A stretch of DNA of 64,000 nucleotides from Massilia frigida (GTDB taxonomy: Bacteria > Pseudomonadota > Gammaproteobacteria > Burkholderiales > Burkholderiaceae_D). Both the position numbers and the translations under genes were made by a program. Shown here in pieces: positions 6,201-59,859 of the stretch. The first letter of the stretch is position 1. Each line of letters starts with the position of its first letter. The DNA lies in NCBI RefSeq assembly GCF_011682175.1, contig NZ_WHJG01000029.1:1-64000 (forward strand), in the 5' to 3' direction. Below the pieces are notes generated by a model that was given only the letters and a program-made list of their open reading frames with translations, did not search any database and was not told the DNA's origin.

Positions 6201-9200
6201 AAGCCATGGTCCTGCAACAGGTGCTCAAAGGCACCGACCTGGACGACAAGCTCGACGGCACTTCAGGCAACGATGTCATCACCGGCCGCAAAGGCCAGGA
6301 TACCTTGCTTGGCATGCAGGGCAATGACAGCCTGTCCGGCGGACCAGGCAACGACACGCTTGACGGCGGCGCCGGCGACGACGTGCTCGACGGCGGCGCG
6401 GGGCGCGACCGCATGGTGGGCGGCGCCGGCAATGATACCTTCGTGTTCGGCCACGGCGACGGCCCGGATTTCATCTTCACCAGCGACACGGCGCCCGGCA
6501 AGGTCGACACCATCCGCTTCGCAGACGACGTGCAGGCCAGCGATGTGCTGGTCGAGCGCTGGGAAAACAAGCTGGTGCTGACCATCCGCAGTTCCAAGGA
6601 TACCTTGTTTGTCGAGGATTATTTCCTGGAAGCCAACGGGGTACGCACTGGAAAGATCGAACAGGTGCAATTTGCCGAGGGCGTCAGTTGGAGTACGGCG
6701 GTCATCGACCAGATGGCGGTTCCCCACACGAACACGAAACCGCTCATATCCGACTGGGCATTCGACATGAACGGCAACGTCAACAGTACGTTCAGCGTGG
6801 TGTTGCCCACGAACCGGATCGTCGACCCGGATTATTATGACGTGTTGTCCTTTACTGTCGGCGCAATACTTGGCGCCCCTGCGGTGCCCGCATGGCTGAA
6901 ATTTGATCCCCTCACGATGAAGCTGTGGGGTACTCCTGGAGCCAATGACCAGGGCACGGTGGCGTTCCACCTCTTCGGCACGGACCTGTACGGCGCCACC
7001 ACCGCGCGCCAATTTTTTATTAACATTGGCCCCGTGAGCATTGCACCCACGGTCCAGTCGTCCATACCCGACCTCGTCACGTCGCAAGGAACGCCATTCC
7101 AGTTCACCCTGGGCGACGTGTTCACGGACGTCGACAAAGGCGATGTGGTCGCGTACAGCGCAACCCTCGCATCCGGTGGCGTGCTGCCGACATGGCTGAC
7201 CTTCGATCCGGTCACCCGTCAGTTCAATGGCTTGTCCAACGCCGCCGGAACGGTGAGCGTCAAAGTCACTGGAACTGATCTGGGTGGCAAAACCGCATCG
7301 GATGTGTTCGATATTGTCGTCAGCGCCAACAACATCGTCACAGGCACTGCCGGCAACGATACCTTGAAGGGCGGGGTTGGCAACGACCTGATCAAGGGAC
7401 TCGGCGGCAACGATGACCTCGAAAGTGGTTTGGGCCGCGATACCCTGGAAGGCGGCACGGGCGACGATACCTATGTCATCAATGATGGCGACGATTCCGT
7501 GATCGAGAACGTCAACGAAGGTATCGATACCGTGCGAACAGCGCTGCCGGACTACACACTGCCAGCCAATGTCGACAACCTCGTGTTCAGCGGTGAAGGA
7601 ACGCAGAGCGTTCTGAATGGTAATAACCTCAACAATAACATCAGCGCCGGGCTGGGTAGCCAGACGCTTGATGGCGGCATGGGCGCCGACACCATGGCCG
7701 GAGGTACCGGCAATGACGACTACGTGGCCGACAGCACGCTCGATATCGTCGTTGAACTGCCTGGCGGCGGGTACGATAGGGTCAATTCCAGCGCGAGCTT
7801 TACATTGCCCGCCAATGTGGAATCGTTGGAATTGCTGGGAACGGCAAACATGGATGCCACTGGCAATGTGGCAGACAATACGATCCATGGAAATGAGGGC
7901 AATAACCGCCTCGACGGTGGCGCCGGCAGGGATTATCTCTACGGCCACGGGGGCGACGATACCTACGTCATCGACAACATCGACGACGTGGCTGTCGATG
8001 ACAGCGGTAACGATACGGTCGAAACAAGTATCAGCTCCCAATCCGTTTTGTTTGATGGCATCGAGAACCTGACACTGACCGGCGGCGCGCTCTCGCGCTT
8101 TGGCAACGCGCTGGACAACGTCATCAAGGGCAATACGCTGAAAAACACACTGTCCGGCCTTGCAGGCAACGATCAACTGCTTGGCGGTGCCGGCGACGAT
8201 ACCCTGTCCGGCGGCGCGGGCAACGATGTGTATGTCGTCGAACGTGGCGACGGCAAGGACGTGGTCATCAACGACGATGTGCTTGGCGCCATCGATACGC
8301 TGCGCTTCGGCAAAGACATCGCAGAAGCCGACGTCATTGCGCAACGCAGTGGCGACAATCTGCTTCTGCAAATCAAGGGGAGCACGGATCAAGTGACGTT
8401 CTCCAAGTACTTCATTGCAGACGTGAGCAAGGATGGGGCGATCGTTAACAACAAGATCGAGCGCGTCGAGTTTGTCGGCGGTGCCGTATGGGATCAAGCC
8501 AAGATACAAACCCTGGTCGATATCAGCACCGCCAACAAGGTGCCTGTACGCGGCCCGGGGGCCGTGGCGCCGTTCAAGGCGGAGGTGGGCAAGCCGCTCA
8601 CCTTCACCCTCGCAGCCAATACCATGGTCGATCCGGACCCGCTCGATACCTTCGCCTACAGCGCATCGTTGGCCAACGACGTGCCCTTGCCGGCATGGCT
8701 GAAGTTCGATGCTGCCTCGCGGACCTTCAGCGGCACGCCCACCGCCACCGACGTGGGCTCGGTTCCGGTCAAGCTGTGGGGAACGGACAACCATGGCGGA
8801 CGAGGCTATATCGACTTGCCGCTGGTCGTCAGCCCGGCCAACCGCACGCCGGTCCTGGCGGCCGCGCTTGCTGACCAGGCCAACGCCCTGGGTACGGCAT
8901 TCAGTTATGTGGTGCCGGCTGGCGCGTTCACCGATCCGGATGCGGGAACCGTGCTCAGCTACAGCGCCACCATGGCCGACGGCACGCCTTTGCCTGGCTG
9001 GATGTCGTTCAACGCCACGACGCGGGCATTTGGCGGCACCGCGCCGGCTGCCGGAACGTTCAGCGTGAAAGTCACCGCCCGCGATGCCGGCAATCTGAGC
9101 GCCAGCGATGTCTTCGATCTGGTCGTCAGCGTCAAAAACCTGACACTGACCGGCACCGCCGGTGCCGACCAGTTGAACGGTGGTGCAGGTAACGATATCC

Positions 9201-46514: not shown

Positions 46515-47374
46515 TGCTTGAACTAATGGTCGACGCCAACAATGCGCTGGGCGAATGCGTGCTGTGGTGCGAGCGTAGCGGGCGGGTCTTCTGGACCGAT
46601 ATTCTGGGGTCGACCCTGTGGGCGCACCATCCTGCCACGGGCGCCACGCGCAGCTGGACCATGCCGGAGCGGCTGGCATCATTCGCCTTCACCGACCATG
46701 ACGGACGCCTGCTGGTCGCTCTGGCGACGCAGCTGGCGTACTTCGAGCTGGAAAGCGGGGCGCTCACGCCGATTTGCGAGGTCGAGGCCGGGCTGAGCAC
46801 ACGCCTGAACGATGGGCGCTGCGACCGCCAGGGACGTTTCGTGTTCGGTACCTTCAATGAAGTCGAGCCGCGCCTGGCGATCGGCGGTTTCTATCGGCTC
46901 AACCGCGACCTGAGCCTGGAGCGCCTGCCACTGCCGCACGTGGCGATTGCCAACAGCATCTGTTTCAGTCCCGACGGCGCGACCATGTATTACTGCGATT
47001 CGCCGGAGCGGATGATCCGCTGCTGCGACTACGACCTGGTCAGCGGCGCGCTGTCGAACCAGCGCGTGTTTGCGCAGGTACAAGGCGAGGGCGAGCCGGA
47101 CGGCTCGTGCGTGGATGCGCGCGGCTACCTGTGGAACGCCCAGTGGGGCGCGGGCAAGCTGGTGCGTTATGCGCCGGACGGCAGCATCGACCGCAGCGTG
47201 GCGCTGGCGGCCAGCCAGCCGAGCTGCGTGGCATTCGGCGGCGCGCTGCTCGACCAGTTGTATGCGACCAGCGCCAGGGTCGGGCTGGCCAATCCGGTGC
47301 AAGCTGATGGCGGGCTATTCAGGGGGACGGTGCCGGGTGTGCGCGGCTTGCCGGAGAGCCGGTTTATTTGCTGA
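46511..47374 (+). CDS. SMP-30/gluconolactonase family, probable L-arabinolactonase
   Basis: A 287-residue six-bladed propeller lactonase that would open L-arabino-gamma-lactone to L-arabonate. The metal-site Glu is in NALGECVLW; NDGRCDRQGRFVFGTF, ANSICFSPDG and EPDGSCVDARGYLWNAQWG are the SMP-30 signature stretches with the metal-binding Asn and Asp. It is the last gene of the operon, coupled to the epimerase by ATGA. The next enzyme of the route, arabonate dehydratase, is at 59860. An L-arabinose dehydrogenase was not found in the window. Confidence 0.88.
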   Translation: MMLELMVDANNALGECVLWCERSGRVFWTDILGSTLWAHHPATGATRSWTMPERLASFAFTDHDGRLLVALATQLAYFELESGALTPICEVEAGLSTRLNDGRCDRQGRFVFGTFNEVEPRLAIGGFYRLNRDLSLERLPLPHVAIANSICFSPDGATMYYCDSPERMIRCCDYDLVSGALSNQRVFAQVQGEGEPDGSCVDARGYLWNAQWGAGKLVRYAPDGSIDRSVALAASQPSCVAFGGALLDQLYATSARVGLANPVQADGGLFRGTVPGVRGLPESRFIC

Positions 47375-47388
47375 TCGTGCCCCTGGGG

Positions 47389-48648
47389 TTATTCCAGCAA
47401 GGTATTGATTGCTGCAAGGTCGTCAACGCTCAAGCGTCCGCCAGCCTGCTTGAGCAGCAGCAGTGCGACGACATGGCGATGGCGCGCTTGGGTCAGTTGC
47501 AGTTGTGCCTGGCCATTGGTCTGGATCGCGTTGAGCACATCGGTGAGGGTGCGGGTGCCGATTTGCTGGCCCGAGCGTATGGCGGCAAGCGCGCGCTCGG
47601 CCGCTGCCGCCCCCGCTTCGATGATCTTGATTTGCGTAATACTTCCTTGTGCTGCCTCCCATTGTGCCTTGATGTTGCGCGTAATGTCGCGCCGGGTCAT
47701 TTCGACTTGCGCGATTTGAATGTCTCGCCTTGCCACGGCTTGCCTTTCTTGTGCCAGGGTGGCGCCACCCATCATGAGCGGGATGGACAGCTGCAGGCCC
47801 ACGGCCGAATGCGTCGACGTCCTTGGGGGCTGATAGTCACGCGGAGCCCGTTCCGAGGTGACAGTGAGCGCTAATGTGGGAAGATGACCGGCCTGCGCCG
47901 CATGAATGCGTTCTTTTGCCGCGCTAATGCTGGCGTCGCCAGCTTGAAGTTGCGGGTGGTCGGCCAGGGTATCGGCTTGCGGGTCGGGCTCAAGCACGGC
48001 AGGCTGCCATGTTTTCTTCAAGTGTTTGAGTGGTTCCGGTGCACGGCCGACGAGTTGCTGGAGTGCCTGGCGGGCGTCGGCCAGCGCCTCCTTTGCCTGT
48101 TGGGTAATCGCCTGTGCCAGGCCGAGAGTTGCGCGGGCTTGATCGACGTCCGCGGCTGCCGACAGCCCCTCGGCCACGCGCACTTCGCTCTGCCGTACCA
48201 ATTCGGCAAATGCGGCTTCGTTGGCGCCGTACGTGGCAAGCTGGCTCTCCGCGGTCAGCATGTCGAAGTAGCGAATGGCGAGCTCGGCCAGCAGAGCCTG
48301 CTTGGCTACATGGAAATTGGCGTCTTGTGCATTCGCCTCGGCGCGCGCGGCGTTCAAATTGGCGCGGGCGGCGACATCCACCACCGACTGCGTGATTTTA
48401 CTGCTGGTCGTATTGTAGGATGGGGCTCCGCCCGCGCGCTGCTGCGACACACTCAGCTGCCATTGCGGCAGCAATGGCGCACGGGCGGCATCGACATCCG
48501 CGCTGGCCAGGCGGGTTTGAGCGGCGGCGCTTTGCAGCGTCGGGTAGTTGACGCGAGCATGCGTGTATAGCGTGAGCAAGTCGTCGACTGGCGCTGCCGC
48601 CACATGAGGCCCGATGCCAAGTAACGCGATCCAGGCCCACTGCTTCAC
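47389..48648 (-). CDS. TolC-family outer-membrane efflux protein
   Basis: A 419-residue outer-membrane factor. A signal peptide (LLGIGPHVAAA) precedes two long coiled-coil repeats rich in Ala, Gln and Leu (for example DVDQARATLGLAQAITQQAKEAL in part). It would form the channel through which the MacB-like complex discharges. The GTG start overlaps the ATPase stop by four bases (GTGA). It is the last gene of the lanthipeptide strand and converges with the arabinoside operon 14 bases away, with no obvious terminator between. Confidence 0.88.
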   Translation of the reverse strand: MKQWAWIALLGIGPHVAAAPVDDLLTLYTHARVNYPTLQSAAAQTRLASADVDAARAPLLPQWQLSVSQQRAGGAPSYNTTSSKITQSVVDVAARANLNAARAEANAQDANFHVAKQALLAELAIRYFDMLTAESQLATYGANEAAFAELVRQSEVRVAEGLSAAADVDQARATLGLAQAITQQAKEALADARQALQQLVGRAPEPLKHLKKTWQPAVLEPDPQADTLADHPQLQAGDASISAAKERIHAAQAGHLPTLALTVTSERAPRDYQPPRTSTHSAVGLQLSIPLMMGGATLAQERQAVARRDIQIAQVEMTRRDITRNIKAQWEAAQGSITQIKIIEAGAAAAERALAAIRSGQQIGTRTLTDVLNAIQTNGQAQLQLTQARHRHVVALLLLKQAGGRLSVDDLAAINTLLE

Positions 48649-49352
48649 GCACTGCCTCCCTTGGCAGTGAAGGCACTCGACAGGCGAGTCACTTCGCTTG
48701 CGTGGCCATCCTTGACCCGGACGATCCGTTGGGCGCGCTCGGCCAAGGGCAAATCGTGCGTTACCATGACGATGGTTGCGCCGCCAGCGTGGAGCTCTTC
48801 CAATAGTTCCATGACGCCGCGCGCCATTTCGCTGTCGAGATTACCGGTGGGCTCGTCGGCCAGCAGGAGTGCCGGCGAGCCAGCCAGGGCCCGGGCGATT
48901 GCCACCCGCTGTTGCTGACCACCCGACAGTTGACCAGGATAGTGCTTTGCACGGGAGCCGAGACCGACCCGTTTTAGTGCGGCTTCAGCCAGTTCCAGAC
49001 GCTCGGAGGCTTTGATGCCCCGGTAAGCCAAAGGGACTTCAATATTGTTGATCAGGTTGAGATCAGGAATCAAATTGAAGGCTTGAAAGATGAAACCGAT
49101 CTTGCGATTGCGGAAGCGGCTCCGTGCGCTATCGTTCATCGTGCTCACGTCGGTTCCATCGAGCGAATAGGTGCCGCCGGTGGGCGTATCGACCAATCCG
49201 GCGATCCCCAGGAAGGTACTTTTTCCCGATCCGGACGGCCCGGTGACTGCGACGAATTCGCCTTGCTTGACGCTGAGGTTAAAGTCACGCAAGGCGTTTG
49301 TTTCGACGCTCTCGGTACGGTAGACCTTGGCAATATGTTGCATCAGAAGCAT
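48645..49352 (-). CDS. MacB/LolD-type ABC transporter ATPase
   Basis: A 235-residue ATPase with all motifs: Walker A GPSGSGKST, signature LSGGQQQRVAIARAL, Walker B LLLADEPTGNLD and the H-loop MVTHD. It powers the two FtsX-type permeases encoded upstream. The operon order is permease, permease, adaptor, ATPase, TolC, with an eight-base gap to the adaptor and a four-base overlap with tolC. MacB-type systems move peptides and other molecules from the periplasm through TolC. Confidence 0.93.
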   Translation of the reverse strand: MLLMQHIAKVYRTESVETNALRDFNLSVKQGEFVAVTGPSGSGKSTFLGIAGLVDTPTGGTYSLDGTDVSTMNDSARSRFRNRKIGFIFQAFNLIPDLNLINNIEVPLAYRGIKASERLELAEAALKRVGLGSRAKHYPGQLSGGQQQRVAIARALAGSPALLLADEPTGNLDSEMARGVMELLEELHAGGATIVMVTHDLPLAERAQRIVRVKDGHASEVTRLSSAFTAKGGSA

Positions 49353-49360
49353 AGATAACC

Positions 49361-50626
49361 CTACTTGATTAGTTGAACGCGTTCGGCGTTTTTGAATAGT
49401 TCGCTACCTGAAATAATGATTTCTTCGCCGCTCTGAATGCCATCCAAGATCTCCACTTGCGACATGCCCTGTGCACCGAGGCGTATCGGGCGGCGGACCG
49501 CCACATCGCCCGTGACCACGTAAGCCCAGCGCCCGCCGCCTTCTTCCACAAACGCGCCGCGCGCGATGCGCAGTATCTTGGCGCGGTTGTCGAGTAATAC
49601 GCGGACGGAAAGCCGTTGATTCTGGCGCAGTGCCTCAGGTTGCGCCCCATCAAAACGCAGTCTTGCAGAAACTTCCCCATTGACTACTTCAGGCGACACG
49701 CTGCTGACGCGGCCGCGCCACTGTCCGCCATTGCCGCTGATTTCCCCGGGCATGCCAGCGGTCAGCTCGCGCGCCTGGCTTTCCGCGACTTGAACCTGGA
49801 CCTCAAGTTTGCTCAGATCGACGACTGCCAGCAGTTTTGCATCTTTGGCAACCGTGGAGCGGTCGTTGACGAAAATCTGGCCCACTTGCCCGTCGACCGG
49901 TGAGCGCACCGACAGTTCTTCTTGTTGCCGCTCCAAATCGCCTACCTGTAATTGAGCGCGTTCGTAAGCATGGCGGCGCGCGGCAAGCTCGAAGCGGGTC
50001 GCGTCATTTTTCAGGGTCGATGCCTTTTTCGCTTGCTCATACGCAATTTTGGCGCGCGCCACGGCATCCCGCGATTGTTCGACTGTCAGGCCGGAAGTAG
50101 CGCCGACGTCGAATGCACGCGTCTGGCGAGCAAGTTCGTTGCTGGCAGAGGCAAGTCCCAATTCGGTCGTTTGCACCGCAGCCTCGGCGCTCGCATCCGC
50201 CAGGCGTGTATCCGCCTGGGCAAGCAGCCAGGCGCTCTTGACCGCGTCGGCGGCACTTCGGGCTTGTGCCAGATTGGCTACTAATTCAGGGCTGGTGATC
50301 GTTGCCAGGACCTGGCCTGCTTTCACAGGGTTGCCAGGTTCGACGCTCAAGGTGATCGATCCGCCCGAACCCGCATACAAGGTCGGCGCCGAAGCGGCCA
50401 CCACTTTGCCTTCGGCCGAGACATCGCGGGTCAGATCGCCGATCTCGGCAGTTGCCGTGGTCAGACGCGAACGGCTGTAGCTTGCTCCCCCGTTGACGGT
50501 ATGTTTGAACTGGAACCCGATGCCGGTTGCCGCGGCGATGGCGAGTATCCCGGCGAAAAGCAAGCGTTTTTTACGCGGTCCGGAGGTCGGAAGCGCAGAG
50601 TCCTGGGCAGAGGTATCGGGTATCAT
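49361..50626 (-). CDS. HlyD/MacA-type periplasmic adaptor subunit
   Basis: A 421-residue membrane-fusion protein. One N-terminal membrane helix (LLFAGILAIAAATGIG) anchors it; a lipoyl-like half (SVEPGNPVKAGQVLATI), a long Ala-rich coiled-coil hairpin (about residues 120-250) and a beta-barrel end with the second lipoyl half (LSVRSPVDGQVGQIFV) follow. It links the FtsX-type permeases to TolC. It starts 30 bases after the second permease and ends eight bases before the ATPase gene. Confidence 0.9.
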   Translation of the reverse strand: MIPDTSAQDSALPTSGPRKKRLLFAGILAIAAATGIGFQFKHTVNGGASYSRSRLTTATAEIGDLTRDVSAEGKVVAASAPTLYAGSGGSITLSVEPGNPVKAGQVLATITSPELVANLAQARSAADAVKSAWLLAQADTRLADASAEAAVQTTELGLASASNELARQTRAFDVGATSGLTVEQSRDAVARAKIAYEQAKKASTLKNDATRFELAARRHAYERAQLQVGDLERQQEELSVRSPVDGQVGQIFVNDRSTVAKDAKLLAVVDLSKLEVQVQVAESQARELTAGMPGEISGNGGQWRGRVSSVSPEVVNGEVSARLRFDGAQPEALRQNQRLSVRVLLDNRAKILRIARGAFVEEGGGRWAYVVTGDVAVRRPIRLGAQGMSQVEILDGIQSGEEIIISGSELFKNAERVQLIK

Positions 50627-50656
50627 TTTCCGGGAAAAATTATGCGTGTTGGGTTG

Positions 50657-51871
50657 TCAGGCGGACTTGATTGCGGTCATCGGTGAAATGCTGGAGGCGC
50701 TCAGGGCCGGCGCCAGGACAGCCAGCTGGCCCAGAATCCATAGCACAAGCGCGCCGATCGGCATGTAGACAAGTGGTAGTTTGGGCAATTCGTAATAACG
50801 CATCAATCCGAGATTCATTTCATAGGCGAATAGCATTCCCAAAGTGATCCCGAGCGTGACGATGATAAAGTTTTCGATTTGAAAATAACGCAGGATGTCG
50901 CCTTTGGTGGCGCCGAGGGCACGCCGAATCCCGATCTGCTTGCCGCGCTGGGCGACCCAGAAGTTGGCCAATCCGATAATGCCCAATGCGGTGGTGCCCA
51001 GCAAACCCGCGATCAGGCACAGCAGCAATCCCAGCATGATGTTCGATTTTTCAAAAAAATCGTGGCGCAGGTCTTGCAGGCTCTGGCTCGCGTCCAGGTC
51101 CACTATCAGATTGGGAGCGGTTTTTTGCGCGATTTTCCTGGCGTCGGCGACGATGCGCGCCATCTCGTTCGGATTGCCGCGAATGAGGTATTTACCATCA
51201 AAACCTGCCCCACTGGCGGTCGGAACGAATACCGTCCAATCGGGATCGTCCTCGGCGCTGATACTCGGATAGACCGCCGAAAAGTGGTCCAGCACACCGA
51301 TCACCCGGAATGCCGTGTTGGTCACCCAGAATTGTTGTCCTATCGGGTCCTTCCCGGGCCAGAATTTCGCTGCGAGCTTCCTGGTGATCAGGACGGGAGG
51401 ATTGGCGGGAAACAGTTGGGTGAGCGGTGTGTACTCGTCCTTCGATGGCACGCGCCCGCTGATGAGCCGCAAGCCGAACGATTCGATGGCGGCACTATCG
51501 CCGAGATAGAAGTCGATCACGCCGGCCGACTGTTTTTGTTCGGGGTCGAGATGCACCCCGGCCCTCAGGCCGCCACCGCCGAACGGGACCGCGCTGACCA
51601 CGCTGACGTTCTGGACCCCGGCCACGCCACGCAAAGCGGCGACCATGCGGGCGTTCAAGTCGGGCGCCTGCTGTTGATCGTAGCCGACGATTTTGATCAG
51701 CGCCAGGGACGGTTCCTCAATACCGCTGTCAATGCGCATCGACTCGATACGCTGCATGACGAGAAAGCTGGCATTGCAAAGAACGGCGCAGGAGAGCGAA
51801 ATTTGCAGGGTAATCAGAAATGTCACCAAGCGATGCTTGCGTAACGCGGCCAGCACATATCGAATCTGCAT
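50657..51871 (-). CDS. MacB/FtsX-type ABC permease (second of pair)
   Basis: A 404-residue permease: one N-terminal membrane segment, a large periplasmic domain of MacB_PCD type (about 40-280) and three C-terminal segments with the FtsX signature GKQIGIRRALGATKGDILRYF (from residue 311). A GAGGAG site lies just before the ATG. It starts ten bases after the first permease. The two half-permeases differ clearly and probably form a heterodimer energised by the downstream ATPase. Confidence 0.88.
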   Translation of the reverse strand: MQIRYVLAALRKHRLVTFLITLQISLSCAVLCNASFLVMQRIESMRIDSGIEEPSLALIKIVGYDQQQAPDLNARMVAALRGVAGVQNVSVVSAVPFGGGGLRAGVHLDPEQKQSAGVIDFYLGDSAAIESFGLRLISGRVPSKDEYTPLTQLFPANPPVLITRKLAAKFWPGKDPIGQQFWVTNTAFRVIGVLDHFSAVYPSISAEDDPDWTVFVPTASGAGFDGKYLIRGNPNEMARIVADARKIAQKTAPNLIVDLDASQSLQDLRHDFFEKSNIMLGLLLCLIAGLLGTTALGIIGLANFWVAQRGKQIGIRRALGATKGDILRYFQIENFIIVTLGITLGMLFAYEMNLGLMRYYELPKLPLVYMPIGALVLWILGQLAVLAPALSASSISPMTAIKSA

Positions 51872-51881
51872 AAACTCCTCT

Positions 51882-53201
51882 CTATAACTGGTTTAATTGT
51901 ACTGCGGGTTGAATCAGCGTGGCACGTAATGCCGGTATGATTCCAGCCAATAAGCTGACCGCCACGGACAGCGCGAACGTCATGCAGAACATTGGCACGT
52001 CCAGGTAAGCAAGGTCGACATAAGACACGGGCTGCTGACGCACCAGATAAAGGCCGAACAGGGTTAACAACAAGCCTGCTACGCCACCCAGAAAACCGAT
52101 GCAAGCGGCTTCGGCAAGGCACTGCGCAAATATCGCGCCGCGCGTGGCGCCGAGCGCGCGGCGCAAGCCGATCTCGGGGCTATGGCGCAGGAATTTTGCC
52201 AGCAGAAGCGCCACCACATTGATCAGGCAAATGGCCAGGAAGGCGAATGCGAGCACGGTTTGAAGTTTTACATCGGCGGGCACCACGAGGTTAAAGTCCA
52301 GCCATTCGCCCAGGGTCCGAAGGCGCGTATTTTCAGCATATTTGACGCGCCCTTGCTGTTTGAGTTGCGCCGCGCTGTTGTCCAGAAAGCGCTTATAGGC
52401 GGCAACCTTGGCCGGGTCATCCAATCGAACCCACAAGCCAATCCAGGTGCAAGGCGCGCGTTCCAGATTTTCCAGTTGATCGCGTTTCGCCCAGCAGTTG
52501 AAAGGTTGGAAATTTCCGCCGTTGACTTCCAGGCTGGTAAAAAAAGGCATGAATACATCATCGGGTTGCCTGTAAAACGACGATGTGTCGCCGCCACTGA
52601 AGCGGCCGCCGCGGACGGCATAAAACAATGGCGCCGGTCGCCACGCTGCGAGCACACCGACGATCTTGACATCGGCGTTCGCTACGCGAATGACCTTGCC
52701 GACGCTATTCGCGCCGCCGAACAGTTTTTCATTGAGCGATGCCGAAATGACCGCCACCCGCGTCCGTCCAGTGTCATCGGCGGCGCTCCATGCTTGTCCA
52801 AAGTGAAAAGGGACATCAAACATGGAAAAGAAATCGGCAGTCGTGGCGCGCAGCGACAGCATTTGCGCAGGGAGCGACGCATCGGCCGGACGCACCTTGG
52901 CCTTGCTGCCTGCGACCAGGATCTGCTGATCCGCCTGGCCGGCCTTCCACAGGTCGACCGCCGTTTGGTAATCAAGGACGTCTGGCGGCTCCTTGCCCTT
53001 GGACTGCGGGTTGACATCGATCTGAGCATAATAAATGTGCTGGCTTCGACCGGGCAGGGGATCGCCTGACAATAGACGCATCACGGTGAGCGTGGTCATG
53101 CTTGCGCCGATCCCGACCGCGATCGCCAGCACCATCAAGGCAGTCAGTACCCTGTTGCGCTGCGTATTATGCCGAACTACTTTTAAAATATAACTTAACA
53201 T
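51882..53201 (-). CDS. MacB/FtsX-type ABC permease (first of pair)
   Basis: A 439-residue permease with an N-terminal segment TALMVLAIAVGIGASMTTLTV, a large periplasmic domain beginning SGDPLPGRSQHIYYAQ, and three C-terminal segments including SPEIGLRRALGATRGAIFAQ. I chose the ATG at 53201 (MLSYILKVVRHN), as relatives start at this point; an open frame to 53288 adds 29 unlikely residues. It lies 203 bases after the peptidase-less ABC exporter gene; that gap holds no gene or clear terminator. Confidence 0.87.
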   Translation of the reverse strand: MLSYILKVVRHNTQRNRVLTALMVLAIAVGIGASMTTLTVMRLLSGDPLPGRSQHIYYAQIDVNPQSKGKEPPDVLDYQTAVDLWKAGQADQQILVAGSKAKVRPADASLPAQMLSLRATTADFFSMFDVPFHFGQAWSAADDTGRTRVAVISASLNEKLFGGANSVGKVIRVANADVKIVGVLAAWRPAPLFYAVRGGRFSGGDTSSFYRQPDDVFMPFFTSLEVNGGNFQPFNCWAKRDQLENLERAPCTWIGLWVRLDDPAKVAAYKRFLDNSAAQLKQQGRVKYAENTRLRTLGEWLDFNLVVPADVKLQTVLAFAFLAICLINVVALLLAKFLRHSPEIGLRRALGATRGAIFAQCLAEAACIGFLGGVAGLLLTLFGLYLVRQQPVSYVDLAYLDVPMFCMTFALSVAVSLLAGIIPALRATLIQPAVQLNQL

Positions 53202-53404
53202 AAGCCGACCAATTAAAAAGACCCAGTGGGGGATGTCGCCGGCCCCGTGTTGCCGGGCAGGCGCTGAAGAATTCATTTCCAGGCGCAATTGAAGTCAAGT
53301 TTCCCGGCGCAGCATTGCGATTTCCTCATCCGCTGTATCGGGGCGCGAACCCTGCATGTGATCGCGGCCCGGCGAAGCGTTTCGGCGCTTCAATCGGCAC
53401 TTTT

Positions 53405-55039
53405 TTAACCGGGCTGGGCTTCTTCCGTCTCGACCGCCTCAAGCACTTGCCTGGATGGCACGCTTGCACTGGTGCCTAGCGTATGGACCTTATCGAACAT
53501 CGAATAGTATTCTTCCGAGGCATGCATGATCATCACTAAAATCTTTCCCTTTGTATGTTCCCAGACGGCTGCCATCGCGATTTGACGGCTGTTGATATCG
53601 AGATTGGCCAACGGTTCGTCGAGTACATACAGGTCCGCCTCTTTCGAAAGAGCCAGTGCCAGCGAGACTTTCTGCTGCTGCCCGGCCGACAGTTGGTCGG
53701 GATATGCATCAAGGATGTCCGGCTTATCGATCATGAAGCGCTTGAATAGTTCCGTCTTGATTGCCAGGTCGCGCACGCGAATCGGCGGGAATAATACCGG
53801 CAAGGTCGCGGCGCTGATTTCCCGGGGCAGTTCCAGCTGGCCGCTGGACGGCGACAGGTAACCGGCCAGCATGTTCGCCAGCGTGGTTTTTCCCGAACCG
53901 TTATTGCCGACAATCAGAAGGCGCGTGCCCGGCTCGACATGAATTGAAAAATCGGAGATGACCTGGTTATCGGCATAGCTGTAGCTGATGCCGCTTGCCG
54001 CCACGGCACTGCCGCTCTTGTGGTACGGGACGGCATTCTGGTCGCCGATAAACGACTTCAAGCGATTGACGATAGCGCCGAGCGCATGCAGCTCAGCCGA
54101 CAGGCTGAAGATCTGGATCAAGGTGGTGGCCGATCGCCAAAATGCGTTCATGAAGGAAAAATATGCGCCAATGGTCATCTGTTTTTTTAATACCAACAGG
54201 GAGCCGATGAAAATCGAACAGGCATCGGACACGCTCATCGTCAGATCACTCGCAGTTTGCAGGCGGCGAATGACGCGCTGCTTTTGGTAGCCGGATTCCA
54301 GCGTCTCATCCATGGTTCGATTGAACTTGTCGAGGGTCTGCGGCACCATCATGTAGGTGCGGACCATTTTGAACGCGTCCACCGATTTGGCAAGAACCCC
54401 CATCAACGACGCTTCGTTATCGCGCTCGACGAGCGCCAGGTGGCGAATCTTCTTGCTGACCTTGACGCTGACCCAGGTGGCAACCGGGATCAGCGCGGCC
54501 AGGATCAGGAACGCTTGCCAGGAAAGAATGATGAGAACCGAGATAAGCCCGACAAACATGACGGCACAAATGGTGGCCCGGCGTACCAGGATCAGCATCG
54601 GTACCAAGCCATCCTTGACGTCGGATCGGATTCTGGCGAGATAGTAACCACTACCTTCCCGCAATACGTCGCCGTACTCCTTGCCATAATAGGCATGCAG
54701 GACCCGGCCGCTGATATCCGCCACAATCTTGTTGTCTATTCTCATTTGCCAGAGCGACAGATAGTAGCCGATGACATTGAGAACAACCCCGAGCAATAAA
54801 TAGAAGAACACGAGCATCACAAACCGGCTAAGCTCGGTTCCCTGATTGACGCCGTCAAAAATCTCCTTGACCAGCAAGGGATGGATGATCGTTTCCGAGC
54901 CGGCGGCGACGCAATTACAGAACAAGGCGGTCCAGTATTGGCGTTTTGCCGCGCCAAGCATGCTGAAAAAATTCCGGAATGTCGATGAATCGTCCAGCTT
55001 TCGGCTTGATCCGGGATTGTCTTTACTTTGTGTGTTCAT
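53405..55039 (-). CDS. ABC exporter (membrane + ATPase) of the lanthipeptide locus, no peptidase domain
   Basis: A 544-residue half transporter: six membrane segments to about residue 310 and an ATPase with GNNGSGKTT, LSAGQQQKVSLALALS and YVLDEPLANLD. It starts directly in a short polar N-terminus and has no C39 peptidase domain, so it would export the modified peptide but not cut the leader, as usual in class III systems. It begins 50 bases after the LanKC stop. The H-loop (MIMHASEE) and the ATPase end are slightly unusual but complete. Confidence 0.87.
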   Translation of the reverse strand: MNTQSKDNPGSSRKLDDSSTFRNFFSMLGAAKRQYWTALFCNCVAAGSETIIHPLLVKEIFDGVNQGTELSRFVMLVFFYLLLGVVLNVIGYYLSLWQMRIDNKIVADISGRVLHAYYGKEYGDVLREGSGYYLARIRSDVKDGLVPMLILVRRATICAVMFVGLISVLIILSWQAFLILAALIPVATWVSVKVSKKIRHLALVERDNEASLMGVLAKSVDAFKMVRTYMMVPQTLDKFNRTMDETLESGYQKQRVIRRLQTASDLTMSVSDACSIFIGSLLVLKKQMTIGAYFSFMNAFWRSATTLIQIFSLSAELHALGAIVNRLKSFIGDQNAVPYHKSGSAVAASGISYSYADNQVISDFSIHVEPGTRLLIVGNNGSGKTTLANMLAGYLSPSSGQLELPREISAATLPVLFPPIRVRDLAIKTELFKRFMIDKPDILDAYPDQLSAGQQQKVSLALALSKEADLYVLDEPLANLDINSRQIAMAAVWEHTKGKILVMIMHASEEYYSMFDKVHTLGTSASVPSRQVLEAVETEEAQPG

Positions 55040-55089
55040 CTGCTGGGACTCGATATCAGGATTGGCTTGCGGGCGCTGTCATCACTGCA

Positions 55090-57768
55090 TCACGCTGAAA
55101 GTTGATCAAGTTCATCCAGACAAAATTCGTCCTCCGCCGGGTTTGCCCGCCGATGGAATGTCCGCATGACGCCGGCGACGCCAGTAGCGTAATCGCACGT
55201 AATTCGGAACAAGTTTTCGCCTGGCGTCGCGTAGCCATCATCAAATTTCAACAGGTAAAGATCGATGATCCCCTGGAGAGACGAGTCCGCCATCGTCAGG
55301 TATTTTTTATCGTTGGAATATCGGTAGGCATCGATCAATACGTCAGCGAAGCCCGCCAGGCCGAAAATGACGCCCGCGAAACTGGCGTATTTGCGATCGA
55401 TATCACCCATGAATCCATCCAATTCACTGCCCCACAGGCCGTAGCGAATGGCTACTTTTACAATTCCGGCGCTACCTTCTTCAATGTAGTGTTCGTAGGT
55501 GCTGGTGTCCTCAGGGTTCGCCGCGACAGTCAGGTTGCCGGGTTCCAGTTCACGGCCCCAGGACATGTCGTACAGTACGGCTTTCTTGCCCATGGCCCGC
55601 CATTTTTCCTCGCCGGTAACCTGGGACAAGCGCAGTAAAAAGAGCGCGACGCCACTTTGCCCATAACCGAAACCGATCCACACCTGGCCATCTTCCTCCC
55701 AGTACACGCCGCGTTCATTCTCTTTCGATTGTTTCTCCAATGTCATGGCCAGATTGACTGCCGCGTCCAGGTAGCGGCCGTCTTTCAAGCGGAGATAGGC
55801 GGCGAGATTGGCCATGCCGATGCCGGCCATGCCGAAATAAAGCGAGTGATGGGCGTGCGTCAGCGGGCTGTGATTTGCATGCTTGAGCAATCGTTCCGCA
55901 GTTTCCCGATCCCCCGCCAGCAAGGAACACCATGCAATGCCAGAGGTACCGACCAGGAACCCGGGGGTGATCTCGTCCAGTTTAAGGGCCGCCAATTCAT
56001 TGCGTTGGCGTTCGAGAGCGGGCAGGGGGATGTCGTAACCGCACGCCGACAGCGTATGAATAATGCCGGTCGCGCCGAAACCGAACGAACTCGGATTGTC
56101 GCGCTGGCCAAAAGGGTCGACCGGGAACAGGGTGAATATCTTGTCAAGCCGATAATTTGAAGTAATGAAGCGCGCCATGTGATCGCTGATTTCGATCGGC
56201 ATATCCCGTTCCAGGGGGCGCCGCTTGATCGGCTGCTCGATCGTGTACTCACTCTGTTCGAGCAGGTCGGCAGCCTGGCTGCAAGTAATCTTATTATCGA
56301 CCAGCTGGGTAATGATGGAGAGCGCCGGAGTGTTCGCCCAGCCCACATCGGCCACCAATCTCGGCAAGACGGCGCTAAATAAATCTTCGCGCAGGAACTG
56401 CATTGCAGCAATCGGGAAGATGGCATACATCATGATCACGCCGATCGCGAACGTATCGTCGTCGTAGGTGCTGTTCAGCTCGCGTCCCTTGGATGGGATG
56501 CGGAACTCGGGCGTATGCAGGCGTTGTGGCTCATCAATGCCAGGGCGGAATGCGCCTTCCAGGTCGATGAATCGAACCGTCATGCTGTCCCGGTCAACCA
56601 GGATGTTTTTTGGCGACACGTCGCCGATAACGATGCCCTGTGCGTGAATACGCGCCATGCCGCGCAGGGCACTGCCAAATGCCTTTTTATAGATATTGTA
56701 AAATTTTTCACTGGCGGCGATGGACGGCCGGGTGTCCACCAAGGGGCTTGATTCCAGCATCACCAGGCGTATGTCGGGAGCCGGAAAATACTCTTCAACG
56801 ACGTAATAATTCTCCCAGTCCCGGAAAGAGTCGTGGATTTCGGGAGCAAGGCCGGTCCCACCGAGCAAACGGAGAATTTTTTCTTCCTGAACCAGGCGCG
56901 CCACGGCATCCATGTCGTCTTCACCCAGCTCGATATACGGGCGCGCCTCCTTGATCACCACCTGTCGCCCGCTTGCCGTTTCGGTTGAAAGGTAGACTCC
57001 TCCCGTATTCGAGAAACCAAGCGCTTCCGTCACCAGGTAGCGCCCGTTATTCAGAGTGAATTCGGCGTGATCAGGCTGTTCTTCGGGGAACGGATCGGAC
57101 GTCCACGGGGGAGTTTCGAAATACGGTGTCCGATTATCCGGAATTTGCTCGCCATCCGGTGAGAAAATGACCGGCTGTTTCTCGCTCGTGTACAGCAGCT
57201 TGGTAACGGAAGTAATGCCGCCATAGCGGTAGTAGAGGCAACGACTATCCTTGTAGCGCCGGTCCGACAAGATGTATGAACCGATATCATCTTTCAAGAC
57301 CGCATAGGCCTTTTCGATGATTTCCCGGAATTTTTCGTCGGTAGGAGGATATAGCGTGATAAATTTTCCGGATCCGCCGCGTGACCATCGCTTCGATGTC
57401 ATCATCTTGAGCGTTTCGGTGTCATTGGCGAACTTGAATTGAATATTGTTCTCAAGCGCCAGGGCTGCAACCTTGACAAGCAGGTTGCGGCAATTGGCCG
57501 CGATGGCAGACACGTGAATTTTCCACCCCTGGACCGGAAGCTTGTTCGATTCCGTGCGGTTGGCGGGAAGGATGTGGGTCCATACGTCCGAGCGATGTAC
57601 TTTCCATGGCTCTGCGCGCCCTTCCAACATGGGGCGGACCAGGCTGATCAGCTCTTCGCCAGGTTGATAGTGCGTGTAACCGTGTTCGTAAAAACGCTTG
57701 CTGGGCCGAAGATAGGCTATTTTGTCGATGTGGCGCAGATCGCGCATGCCCCTAAGCTTCTTCACCAT
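55090..57768 (-). CDS. Class III lanthionine synthetase LanKC
   Basis: An 892-residue three-domain enzyme that phosphorylates Ser/Thr of a precursor peptide, eliminates the phosphate and cyclises Cys onto the dehydroamino acids. Residues 1-215 are the lyase domain (GKFITLYPP, YILSDRRY, YYRYGGI). Residues 240-500 are a kinase: Lys273 in VVIKEA, Asp383 and Asn388 in GDVSPKN, Asp402 in IDLEG. Residues 500-892 are a LanC-like cyclase in which the zinc ligands are absent: GFGYGQSG, YIEEGSAGI and VIFGLAGF stand where LanC has His-Gly, Trp-Cys-x-Gly and Cys-His-Gly. This is the mark of class III, not class IV. A GGAG site precedes the ATG. Four candidate substrates lie 400-900 bases upstream. Confidence 0.93.
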   Translation of the reverse strand: MVKKLRGMRDLRHIDKIAYLRPSKRFYEHGYTHYQPGEELISLVRPMLEGRAEPWKVHRSDVWTHILPANRTESNKLPVQGWKIHVSAIAANCRNLLVKVAALALENNIQFKFANDTETLKMMTSKRWSRGGSGKFITLYPPTDEKFREIIEKAYAVLKDDIGSYILSDRRYKDSRCLYYRYGGITSVTKLLYTSEKQPVIFSPDGEQIPDNRTPYFETPPWTSDPFPEEQPDHAEFTLNNGRYLVTEALGFSNTGGVYLSTETASGRQVVIKEARPYIELGEDDMDAVARLVQEEKILRLLGGTGLAPEIHDSFRDWENYYVVEEYFPAPDIRLVMLESSPLVDTRPSIAASEKFYNIYKKAFGSALRGMARIHAQGIVIGDVSPKNILVDRDSMTVRFIDLEGAFRPGIDEPQRLHTPEFRIPSKGRELNSTYDDDTFAIGVIMMYAIFPIAAMQFLREDLFSAVLPRLVADVGWANTPALSIITQLVDNKITCSQAADLLEQSEYTIEQPIKRRPLERDMPIEISDHMARFITSNYRLDKIFTLFPVDPFGQRDNPSSFGFGATGIIHTLSACGYDIPLPALERQRNELAALKLDEITPGFLVGTSGIAWCSLLAGDRETAERLLKHANHSPLTHAHHSLYFGMAGIGMANLAAYLRLKDGRYLDAAVNLAMTLEKQSKENERGVYWEEDGQVWIGFGYGQSGVALFLLRLSQVTGEEKWRAMGKKAVLYDMSWGRELEPGNLTVAANPEDTSTYEHYIEEGSAGIVKVAIRYGLWGSELDGFMGDIDRKYASFAGVIFGLAGFADVLIDAYRYSNDKKYLTMADSSLQGIIDLYLLKFDDGYATPGENLFRITCDYATGVAGVMRTFHRRANPAEDEFCLDELDQLSA

Positions 57769-57913
57769 ATTCTAGCTCCATTTGTTTTAATTCGACTGTT
57801 TTTTAAAGCAGTTTGTCTCTGAATTGAAAAGCTGTTTATTTCTGCCGCGTCGCATTGCGCGAGCGCGCGTGCAGGTCGATCGCACATGCGGGGTGAAGCG
57901 GGGTACTTGCATC

Positions 57914-57946
57914 ACTATATCGCCGGATCTAATTTTTTTACGGCAA
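57914..57946 (-). promoter_or_regulatory. Possible second promoter before LanKC
   Basis: On the minus strand TTGCCG, TAAAAAAA and TATAGTGA recur in the same order as in the precursor promoter, but the spacer is 21 bases. It may be a weak promoter that drives LanKC apart from the precursors. The 406-base gap 57769-58175 otherwise holds only the terminator at 58119-58159 and no gene I can support. Confidence 0.35.
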
Positions 57947-58118
57947 CATCGCGCTGGATATCCGTTGTATACATGGCACACCGCCAGCGACGTCCTTCCT
58001 GCATGCTGCCAAGGTCGTTTGGCGATAAAGCGGTCATTACTGGCTTGCGGCTTGATGCGCTGCTACGGCTAGAATCAAGAAAGATCGCTTTGGAATTTAT
58101 ATTCTCGGATGATTTCTT

Positions 58119-58159
58119 GAAAAAACAATTCGGGTAACTATAAAAAAAGTTACCCGAAT
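58119..58159 (-). terminator. Strong terminator between precursor genes and LanKC
   Basis: A perfect 12-bp stem (ATTCGGGTAACT / AGTTACCCGAAT) with an eight-base loop. On the minus strand it is followed by TGTTTTTT. It lies 17 bases after the fourth precursor stop, so most precursor transcripts should end here and LanKC be made at lower level. Confidence 0.85.
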
Positions 58160-58175
58160 GAAAAGCCGGTCGCGA

Positions 58176-58250
58176 TCAGGCGCAGCGACATGCGGCTGTT
58201 GAGCTGTTGCTCCCTTCCAGGCTGACATCCAGACACTGAAAATCAAACAT
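58176..58250 (-). CDS. Candidate fourth class III lanthipeptide precursor (divergent)
   Basis: A 24-residue open frame, too short for standard gene finding. Its start MFDFQCLD aligns with ILNLQRLD of the three other precursors and with the hydrophobic-x-x-hydrophobic-Gln leader motif that class III kinases bind. The C-terminal part, SNSSTAACRCA, contains Ser-x2-Ser-x3-Cys, the labionin pattern. It lies 30 bases after the first precursor stop and 17 before the terminator. The ribosome site is weak (AGAGAC), which is the main reason for doubt. Confidence 0.6.
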   Translation of the reverse strand: MFDFQCLDVSLEGSNSSTAACRCA

Positions 58251-58280
58251 GACAGTCTCTGGATGCGATGCCGGATTGGA

Positions 58281-58373
58281 TTAGCAGCAGCCCGCGCCCG
58301 AGCTGGTGCAGCTCTTTACTTCTTCAACGGCTTTGTTGTAGTCGAGGCGCTGCAGATTCAAGATGCGATTCAT
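58281..58373 (-). CDS. Class III lanthipeptide precursor, copy 1
   Basis: A 30-residue peptide. Leader MNRILNLQRLDYNKAVEEVK carries the class III kinase-binding pattern ILNLQ; the core is SCTSSGAGCC. Ser21-x2-Ser24-x4-Cys29 fits labionin formation, and Ser25, Thr23, Cys22 and Cys30 allow further rings. An AGGAG site lies seven bases before the ATG. It differs from copies 2 and 3 only at residue 13 (Asn instead of Ser). No double-Gly cut site is present, consistent with an exporter lacking a peptidase. Confidence 0.85.
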   Translation of the reverse strand: MNRILNLQRLDYNKAVEEVKSCTSSGAGCC

Positions 58374-58422
58374 TTTAATTCTCCTAATAAATAGTGATTT
58401 GTGAATGCAAAATTGCATCGGA

Positions 58423-58515
58423 TTAGCAGCAGCCGGCGCCGGAGCTGGTGCAGCTTTTCACTTCTTCAACGGCTTTGCTGTAGTCCAGGCGTTGCAAATT
58501 CAAAATACGGTTCAT
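58423..58515 (-). CDS. Class III lanthipeptide precursor, copy 2
   Basis: A 30-residue peptide with leader ILNLQRLDYSKAVEEVK and core SCTSSGAGCC, same protein as copy 3 but with silent third-base differences, so the gene is under selection for its peptide. An AGGAG site precedes the ATG. The start-to-start distance to copy 1 is 142 bases, and the spacers are also related, showing tandem duplication of gene plus spacer. Confidence 0.85.
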   Translation of the reverse strand: MNRILNLQRLDYSKAVEEVKSCTSSGAGCC

Positions 58516-58565
58516 TTTAAGTCTCCTGAAAAAATGATGATTTATGAATCTGATGCGGATTCGAA

Positions 58566-58658
58566 TTAGCAGCAGCCTGCGCCGGAGCTGGTGCAGCTTT
58601 TCACTTCTTCGACGGCTTTGCTGTAGTCCAGGCGTTGCAGATTCAAGATACGGTTCAT
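58566..58658 (-). CDS. Class III lanthipeptide precursor, copy 3
   Basis: The promoter-proximal copy; 30 residues, identical in protein to copy 2. AGGAG lies eight bases before the ATG. It is 143 bases from copy 2. It follows a leader of about 210 bases from the predicted transcript start near 58872; that leader (58659-58872) holds no other precursor-like frame. Confidence 0.85.
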   Translation of the reverse strand: MNRILNLQRLDYSKAVEEVKSCTSSGAGCC

Positions 58659-58873
58659 TTTAAAACTCCTAATTTTTAGTTATGGATGTGATTCCGAAAC
58701 CGATAGGCAGCAGGCTGCGCATCGCGCTCCGGATAAAATGCCCTACGCTTAAAAACCCTCGACATTGCATACCTGCAGAATAAGCAATCACCCTCTGGTG
58801 CCAGTTTCTTTTTCGGTTATACGAATAGCCCCGGACCGGTGATCGCTTATCAATTCATGTATTGTCAAAAGCA

Positions 58874-58892
58874 GATTCACTATATGTGAGTC
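58874..58892. promoter_or_regulatory. Operator-like dyad over the precursor -10 box
   Basis: GATTCACTATATGTGAGTC: half sites GAnTCAC and GTGAnTC around a five-base centre, covering the -10 hexamer of the promoter. A repressor bound here would block transcription. No regulator gene is next to it. Confidence 0.55.
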
Positions 58893-58907
58893 TTTTTTTT
58901 AAGTCAA
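58879..58907 (-). promoter_or_regulatory. Sigma-70 promoter of the lanthipeptide precursors
   Basis: On the minus strand TTGACT (58907-58902), exactly 17 bases, TATAGT (58884-58879), with an A-rich spacer and AT-rich upstream DNA resembling an UP element. Transcript start about 58872. Confidence 0.75.
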
Positions 58908-58985
58908 CATTTTTTTTCTATCATAGTTGAAAATTTTTATATGCGGCATAGCGCCCTCAACGGCGGGCTTTTCCCTATGTTCTTA

Positions 58986-59208
58986 CCGGCCGGGGACGCG
59001 CGTCTTTACCCGCATTACATAAATAGACGGATGCTCGGAATAGCGGTGCTTTTGTTTTTCCGGCGCGGGACGCGCGGCGTTACCCGCATTGCATTGCTTA
59101 AAGGGTTTTCGGAATATCGGAGCATGTGTTGCTTCCGATCCGGAAGGTGCATCATTACCCTTTTTGCGTGAATCCAGGCGTGCTCGGAATAGCCGTGCTT
59201 TTACGATT
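58986..59208. repeat. Three degenerate tandem units of 73-75 bp
   Basis: Units at 58986-59058, 59059-59133 and 59134-59208. Shared landmarks are a GC-rich start (xCCGG), TTACCC about 21 bases in, and TCGGAATA(G/T)C about 50 bases in; TGCTCGGAATAGC is exact in units 1 and 3. An open frame on the plus strand crosses units 1-2 but is stopped in unit 3, so it is not convincing coding DNA. Function unknown. Confidence 0.6.
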
Positions 59209-59649
59209 GCCAGTAATCGCAACGCTTGAATGCGTGCGCCGTGGCGGGCGTGGCGAATCGGTCGCCTGCTTTCCAGTCCGCGTGGTTTATCGATGCCTCA
59301 TCGCGGCAGCGCTTATCTTTTAAACGTGGCTTCCGGATGGCCTGCCGCGAGGTTGCGGATCGTATGCATGAATTTGACGGCGCCTGCGGAAAACGAGAGT
59401 TCGGTAGCCATGATAAAAACGCTCGCACGTGCTGCGGCTGGAGGAAAAACCACGTCTCCGCGAAGCTGGCGGTTTCCCGGCCGAGTTCCCGGTCTTCTCC
59501 GACGGCTAGTGTGGCAAAGGCTCATGTCCGTTGCGCCGAAAAGCCAGGTCCCGACTGCGCCCTTCCAAGGGCGTATGGTTTGGAGTGGAAATTATTTCTT
59601 AGATGCAATAGTGTCTGCGCCAGGCTCCAGCCGAAAACGCGTAGTGAAC
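59209..59649. other. Gene-poor stretch between lanthipeptide and arabonate loci
   Basis: About 440 bases with several short open frames on both strands, none with a ribosome site or a recognisable sequence. It may be decayed coding DNA. It ends in a plus-strand terminator, which hints that something upstream is transcribed. Confidence 0.5.
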
Positions 59650-59684
59650 AGGCCCATTTCCTTGGCGGGGAGTGGGCCTTTTTT
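59650..59684 (+). terminator. Rho-independent terminator in the gene-poor stretch
   Basis: AGGCCCA...TGGGCCT with additional imperfect inner pairing (TTCC with GGGG) and a run of T from 59679. No plus-strand gene ends nearby. Confidence 0.7.
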
Positions 59685-59859
59685 GGTCGCCATGGCATCG
59701 GCCATCCCTGTGGCCGGCACGCCGATTAATACCATAATCGATATCACTATCGCAGAAAAAGTGATTGGAAAGGCATCCCAAGAATCTTTAGTATTCCTCT
59801 ATCGCTGACCGGACGACGACATGAGTTCGAGATGGCATCAGAATAAACAGGAGGAATAC

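Follow-up and report, generated by a model that had tools for sequence, protein, structure and literature searches.

The 64,000-nucleotide stretch of Massilia frigida DNA analysed here (contig NZ_WHJG01000029.1 of assembly GCF_011682175.1, positions 1 to 64,000 of the forward strand; hereafter the window) carries at 47389-58907 an operon that its sequence indicates to be genuinely of the class III lanthipeptide kind. It is the Gram-negative variant of the SSxxxCC family, for which curated models exist. In the order of transcription on the minus strand, the operon comprises a promoter-like site, three precursor genes, a hairpin, the gene of the synthetase LanKC, and genes for an ATP-binding cassette (ABC) exporter, two MacB/FtsX-type permeases, a MacA-like adaptor, an ATPase and a TolC-like channel (Table 1). 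The argument draws on this gene set and its conserved order, on precursor conservation with a bias towards silent sites, on the domains and missing zinc ligands of the synthetase, and on the insert in which the operon lies. Taken as a whole, the locus is probably best explained as the Gram-negative form of an SSxxxCC class III operon with modification, cyclisation and two-step export of the peptide. A preliminary description of the DNA had placed the locus at 55090-58907; the synthetase and three of the four precursors noted there are borne out, but the unit extends to 47389 and includes an exporter that was not covered.

The synthetase

LanKC combines RamC_N (residues 52-234), Pkinase (246-450) and LANC_like (589-738) domains in one chain. 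As the preliminary description had proposed, it is a class III enzyme: it passes the curated NCBIfam class III model (NF038151, 621 bits; cut-off 575) and, in an alignment, has other residues at the zinc ligand positions (C, CH) that are retained in an annotated class IV LanL (L107) and in a second synthetase of the same genome (L024). Assignment to class IV is rejected on the model scores (NF038150, 434.5 bits; cut-off 650) and the missing ligands. Solved LanKC structures (8sao, 8sap and others), listed simply as class III synthetase, show a distant likeness over residues 62-869 of the window protein (221 bits).

The second lanthionine-synthetase-like protein is encoded outside the window (G000:C191:37903-39045; L007, L024), is about 895 residues long and keeps its zinc ligands. 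It scores 524 bits with the class IV model against the cut-off of 650, and two of the 16 other genomes in the genus group have related matches. The patterns used revealed no precursor for it.

Precursor peptides

Three open reading frames (ORFs) of 30 residues each lie on the same strand as LanKC and 5' of it, all with AGGAG a few bases 5' of the ATG. Peptides 1 and 2 are identical and peptide 3 carries one substitution. The leader contains ILNLQ, and the predicted core is SCTSSGAGCC, with no residues after it. With a profile built from 11 precursors of other loci, from which the window and its nearest relative (L016, LanKC 85% identical) were excluded, the three frames scored E values of 5.9e-11 to 1.5e-10 among 818 window ORFs of at least 18 residues; the next ORF reached 0.16. 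Silent and replacement differences number 4 and 0 between copies 1 and 2, 9 and 1 between 1 and 3, and 10 and 1 between 2 and 3; the two L016 copies give 6.5 and 2.5. Between window and L016 precursors the two counts are about even, with dN/dS of 0.19-0.32.

The curated precursor model NF038154 (cut-off 22) is reached marginally, with 22.3 bits for precursors 1 and 2 and 22.8 for precursor 3, and the tested precursors from relatives with the same operon score below its cut-off. With NF038160, three of six tested precursors of these relatives pass (43.1, 48.5, 38.7) and three fail (17.5, 23.8, 18.6), and both tested Streptomyces precursors pass. On the expectation that automated annotation would miss the precursors, the evidence points both ways: NF038154 is just reached and a Deinococcus record annotates 33-residue precursors, but Walker et al. 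give 55% of class III precursors as unannotated in the available part of their text (PMC7268733).

The preliminary description had counted four precursors, of which the three above stand. The fourth, at 58176-58250, is rejected, since it ranks 36th of the 818 ORFs (E 7.4) with the profile that excludes the window and 11th (E 1.2) even with one that includes the window's own precursors. It has no match in Pfam or NCBIfam, and reading of the sequence found no counterpart in the matching interval of L016; direct reading was used because a MAFFT alignment against the two-precursor L016 misplaced the third precursor and the region upstream of lanKC. A loose likeness can be seen by eye (FxFQxLD beside LNLQRLD). 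The interval could be a decayed precursor copy, although the profiles give no support for this.

Table 1 Features of the operon and its surroundings in the window
Feature	Position	Strand	Remarks
Promoter-like site TTGACT-17-TATAGT	58879..58907	-	5' of first precursor; scan, 10/12 matches
Precursor 1, MNRILNLQRLDYSKAVEEVKSCTSSGAGCC	58566..58658	-	ORF; NCBIfam NF038154 22.3 bits, cut-off 22
Precursor 2	58423..58515	-	Peptide identical to precursor 1; 4 silent differences
Precursor 3	58281..58373	-	S13N; versus precursor 1, 9 silent and 1 replacement; NF038154 22.8 bits
12-pair hairpin with U-rich tail	58128..58159	-	Between precursors and lanKC; likely partial terminator
LanKC, 892 residues: RamC_N (lyase), kinase and zinc-less LanC-like domains	55090..57768	-	
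ABC half-transporter (membrane and ATPase domains), proposed inner-membrane exporter	53405..55039	-	Pfam PF00664, PF00005
MacB-type permease 1 (MacB_PCD and FtsX)	51882..53288	-	No ATPase domain detected
MacB-type permease 2 (FtsX and MacB_PCD)	50657..51871	-	No ATPase domain detected
MacA/HlyD-like periplasmic adaptor	49361..50626	-	TIGR01730 110 bits, cut-off 94.9
Stand-alone ABC ATPase, proposed driver of the MacB-type permeases	48645..49352	-	
TolC-like outer membrane efflux protein	47389..48648	-	PF02321
Segment absent at the corresponding site of 8 same-genus genomes	47375..59722	.	GC 0.564 versus 0.628 for rest of window

Relatives and place in the family

The same seven genes occur in the same order in four relatives, L016, L027 (an Oxalobacteraceae metagenome-assembled genome), L028 (Duganella sacchari Sac-22) and L029 (Janthinobacterium fluminis hw3), with LanKC 55-85% identical to that of the window. 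Precursors number one or two per locus, with an [IV]LNLQR leader and an SSx3CC core; the L016 core is identical to SCTSSGAGCC, and those of L027, L028 and L029 differ from it. The preliminary description had named beforehand, as grounds for abandoning its proposal, relatives with LanKC that lack such peptides; all four operon relatives have them. An alignment scan of named genomes, among them those of L027, L028 and L029, gave at least 595 pattern matches and at least 575 relatives, the best 80 being taken further; a scan of genome contigs with the single protein had yielded 47 pattern matches and no relative.

In a quick LanKC tree without bootstrap, covering 55 of 89 extracted rows (left out were L033, whose frame stops after 121 residues, L026 and 33 others), the window, L016 and L027-L030 form one clade of six, with a Shimodaira-Hasegawa-like approximate likelihood ratio (SH-aLRT) of 100. 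It adjoins a clade of 13, consisting of 12 actinobacterial loci and one Bipolaricaulota contig, and the joint branch of 19 rows has an SH-aLRT of 99. Precursors of the SSx3CC type were found in 12 of the 13 sister loci, and none in L048 with the patterns used. Together, the two clades have 31 precursors in 18 of 19 loci. Core position 1 is S in 29 of these precursors, and position 3 is T or S in 28; the search pattern SSx3CC itself fixed positions 4, 5, 9 and 10, so that only positions 1 and 3 count as evidence. The resulting core pattern is S-x-[TS]-S-S-x3-C-C, and one Lentzea core, SCTSSGGNCC, is two residues away from that of the window. Tree and core pattern place the window locus beside a mainly actinobacterial clade. 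It shares with the NF038160 precursors of Streptomyces and kin the [LI]xLQ leader, the core pattern, the sister LanKC clade and an ABC exporter directly 3', but differs in its sub-cut-off score, its marginal NF038154 pass and its MacAB-TolC-like genes, of which none were found in 54 actinobacterial loci.

The operon has a narrow distribution. Of the 17 genomes in the genus group, the window's own alone has a strong LanKC match; two others and the second own locus match only LanKC residues 78-453 at 26-27% identity. Strong matches occur in 2 of 74 genomes of the Duganella sacchari genus group and 2 of 40 of the Janthinobacterium fluminis genus group. The betaproteobacterial setting given in the preliminary description agrees with these nearest kin, which belong to the same family. 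A phylum sample of 398 genomes gave a LanKC match in the window's own genome only, and the best of 79 plasmid records with a match is only 32% identical. Other class III loci were seen beside these: L021 and L023, of the same family, have another precursor type, with a Gly-Gly stretch after an LxLQ leader and two WSTxSx2-3C-like motifs, and the Duganella-group locus L020 encodes two class III precursors whose Cys-rich cores are longer, its LanKC sharing 33% identity with that of the window.

The novelty that had been claimed on grounds of phylum was overstated. LanKC genes were found in several proteobacterial genera, and class III products, first known from Actinobacteria, are described as experimentally studied in Firmicutes and Myxobacteria too, according to the accessible part of PMC12328550. 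In the open-licence literature we found no paper on a class III lanthipeptide in Massilia, although the operon may still be described elsewhere, no occurrence of six core strings of the family and, among the 20 matches listed out of 1,228, none that joins a class III lanthipeptide to a tripartite, MacAB or TolC system; one paper mentions lanthipeptides together with Duganella and Janthinobacterium, and eight do so with Oxalobacteraceae.

Export genes

An ABC gene lies directly 3' of LanKC in all 13 sister loci, its product 28-33% identical to that of the window, and, by reading of the locus table, in 1 of 63 loci outside both clades. No peptidase family is listed among the Pfam matches of the window's half-transporter. 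A MacB-type permease, adaptor and TolC-like channel accompany LanKC in five of the six loci of the Gram-negative clade (the window, L016, L027, L028 and L029) and in none of the 13 sister loci. Permease, ATPase, adaptor and outer-membrane factor are all present together in the window operon. The set resembles the MacAB-TolC tripartite pump in its MacB_PCD and FtsX domains, adaptor, ATPase and outer-membrane protein, but here permease and ATPase are unfused, there are two permeases, and the MacB equivalog model gives 46 bits against a cut-off of 966. Matches of permease 2 and the adaptor to the darobactin exporter models are weak (NF038008, 12 bits, and NF038010, 45 bits), not approaching the cut-offs of 700 and 450.

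Because the MacAB-TolC-like part occurs in five of six Gram-negative-clade loci and in none of 13 sister loci, the simplest reading suggests two-step export, in which the ABC protein would bring the peptide as far as the periplasm, from where the MacB-like pump would carry it outside. This agrees with the available text of PMC5985334, where MacB is described as taking its substrates from the periplasm, another inner-membrane pump being required upstream.

Across 86 loci, permease matches near LanKC were found in 9 of 19 loci from Proteobacteria, 3 of 3 from Acidobacteria and 2 of 2 from Gemmatimonadota, and in none of 54 from Actinobacteria and 8 from other groups. Five of the positive loci had served to train the permease profile, the named loci are the best 80 among at least 575, and such permeases may be abundant throughout the genomes of some phyla. 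On the strength of this distribution we tentatively propose, while rating it at somewhat worse than even chances, that double-membrane bacteria have repeatedly coupled class III synthesis to MacB/FtsX-type exporters, a two-step route absent from single-membrane producers, and that the window operon is its most complete form, making an undescribed ten-residue, doubly bridged lanthipeptide. Three gammaproteobacterial class III loci have MacB-type exporter genes. In L040 (Pseudoalteromonas), an adaptor, an ATPase and a double permease lie 2-6 kb 5' of LanKC; L056 (Luteibacter) has an ATPase and a permease near LanKC; and L052 is the third. A sigma-54 response regulator is also present in L040 and L052, and a protein with a histidine-kinase-type ATPase domain adjoins LanKC in L052 and L056.

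Insertion and origin

Homology between the window and eight same-genus genomes stops at 47241-47378 and resumes at 59723-59742, at flanking lactonase and dehydratase genes. In these genomes the two genes are near neighbours: the stretch between the end points is 0.16-1.46 kb long in seven, and in the eighth other genes fill 7.8 kb. The unmatched segment of 12.35 kb lies within a sugar-acid gene cluster, and the GC content of the L016 operon is likewise below that of its flanks (0.559 versus 0.648). The operon was likely acquired. A comparison of the segment's ends gave no 9-mer in common.

G012 (L115) carries an unrelated insert of about 8 kb at the same site, whose large ORFs are by eye patatin-like and DUF2235-like. 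With such different occupants in the window and in G012, the site may be an insertion hot spot. Inside the end of the insert in the window, 50 bp at 59457-59506 are 84-88% identical to part of the relatives' neighbouring dehydratase gene, perhaps a scar. Elsewhere in the window, at 248-10738, a 3,496-residue ORF has many GGxGxD-like repeats and, judged by eye, encodes an RTX-type protein, either surface-bound or secreted.

Regulation and proposed mechanism

At the place matching the promoter-like site of the window, L016 has TTGACA-17-TATAGT (11/12 matches). Counts of such sites are not above those of shuffled sequence (3 versus 1.6 and 1 versus 1.7 in two regions), and the weight is therefore placed on the conserved position. 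With its flanks, the window hairpin folds at -19.1 kcal/mol (z -4.80); its stem, ATTCGGGTAAC/GTTACCCGAAT, recurs in L016 at 5071 with a different loop, at -19.8 kcal/mol without a shuffle control. A block in the transcript leader region, GTTTTTAAGCGTAG.GCATTTT (window about 58730-58759), is common to both loci.

In the mechanism that we propose, which extends from expression and ring chemistry to the sequence of export and leader removal and to what the product does, one promoter-like site would drive the three tandem precursors, and the hairpin 3' of them would stop most transcripts, giving much precursor and little enzyme. LanKC would bind the ILNLQ leader, then phosphorylate and eliminate Ser/Thr of the core. 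The zinc-less cyclase would close one or two rings onto Cys9/Cys10, either a labionin from Ser1-Ser4-Cys9 or lanthionines. After transfer of the peptide to the periplasm by the ABC half-transporter, the leader would be removed by a protease encoded elsewhere, and the split MacB permeases, with ATPase, adaptor and TolC-like protein, would push the peptide through the outer membrane. Outside the cell, the peptide may act on other bacteria, or on the surface or development of the producer itself.

Several observations weigh against this interpretation. The window precursors do not reach the NF038160 cut-off of 27 (18.2, 17.1). L030, which belongs to the same LanKC clade, is without MacAB-TolC-like genes on its 9,986-base contig; two ORFs there instead resemble, by eye, a type I secretion ATPase and adaptor. 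The system is rare, with a LanKC match at E 1e-40 in 8 of 392 genomes of the family sample, five of them with this operon type. The L016 hairpin has no U tail. There is no protease in the operon, and the 7 M1 and 31 S9 protease matches elsewhere in the genome are none of them tied to it.

Alternative explanations

For the ring chemistry, a product with plain lanthionine and no labionin is an alternative whose chance is only a little short of even. Lanthionine-only products are known from some class III enzymes, according to the available portions of PMC7268733 and PMC11251773, and the adjacent Cys pair could close one ring each. The preliminary description had held that the cores fit Ser-x2-Ser-xn-Cys. 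The window core does so only when Cys is admitted as x; it fails the stricter motif used in the accessible part of PMC11251773, S-x2-S-x(2-5)-C with x other than Cys, owing to the Cys at position 2, within S-x2-S. Among the family cores, 22 of 31 pass with x other than Cys and 29 of 31 with Cys allowed. Against a product without labionin stands the retention of Ser1 in 29 of the 31 cores, which the search pattern did not demand.

The same peptide could also be secreted by the ABC transporter, acting by itself or together with a channel encoded elsewhere, the MacAB-TolC-like genes serving self-protection by pumping out peptide that has come back into the periplasm. A part in efflux and peptide resistance is known for MacB-type systems (PMC5985334, available text), none of the operon genes was recognised as a separate immunity gene, and the 13-locus sister clade manages with the ABC gene and no such pump. 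However, the sister clade is actinobacterial and needs no outer-membrane step, the exception being the Bipolaricaulota contig, which ends 1.7 kb after the ABC gene, and all five operons have the entire pump colinear with their synthetase, which fits a secretory role as well. We regard self-protection as unlikely, at roughly one chance in four. That the locus is a decaying, unexpressed acquisition seems far less probable still. Its rarity in the genus group (the single strong LanKC match among 17 genomes), its insertion into a sugar-acid gene cluster and its low GC content would suit decay, but all seven reading frames of the operon genes are open, the copies of the precursor gene preserve the encoded peptide even as their silent sites drift, and the promoter-like site and hairpin recur in L016.

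Implications

With its adjacent cysteines, SCTSSGAGCC would be a convenient minimal substrate for studying labionin versus lanthionine formation. If the two-step interpretation holds, the operon, with three precursors, a synthetase, an inner-membrane exporter and an outer-membrane pump, would offer a compact natural system for the passage of class III peptides across two membranes, and it allows a mainly actinobacterial family to be compared with its Gram-negative branch.

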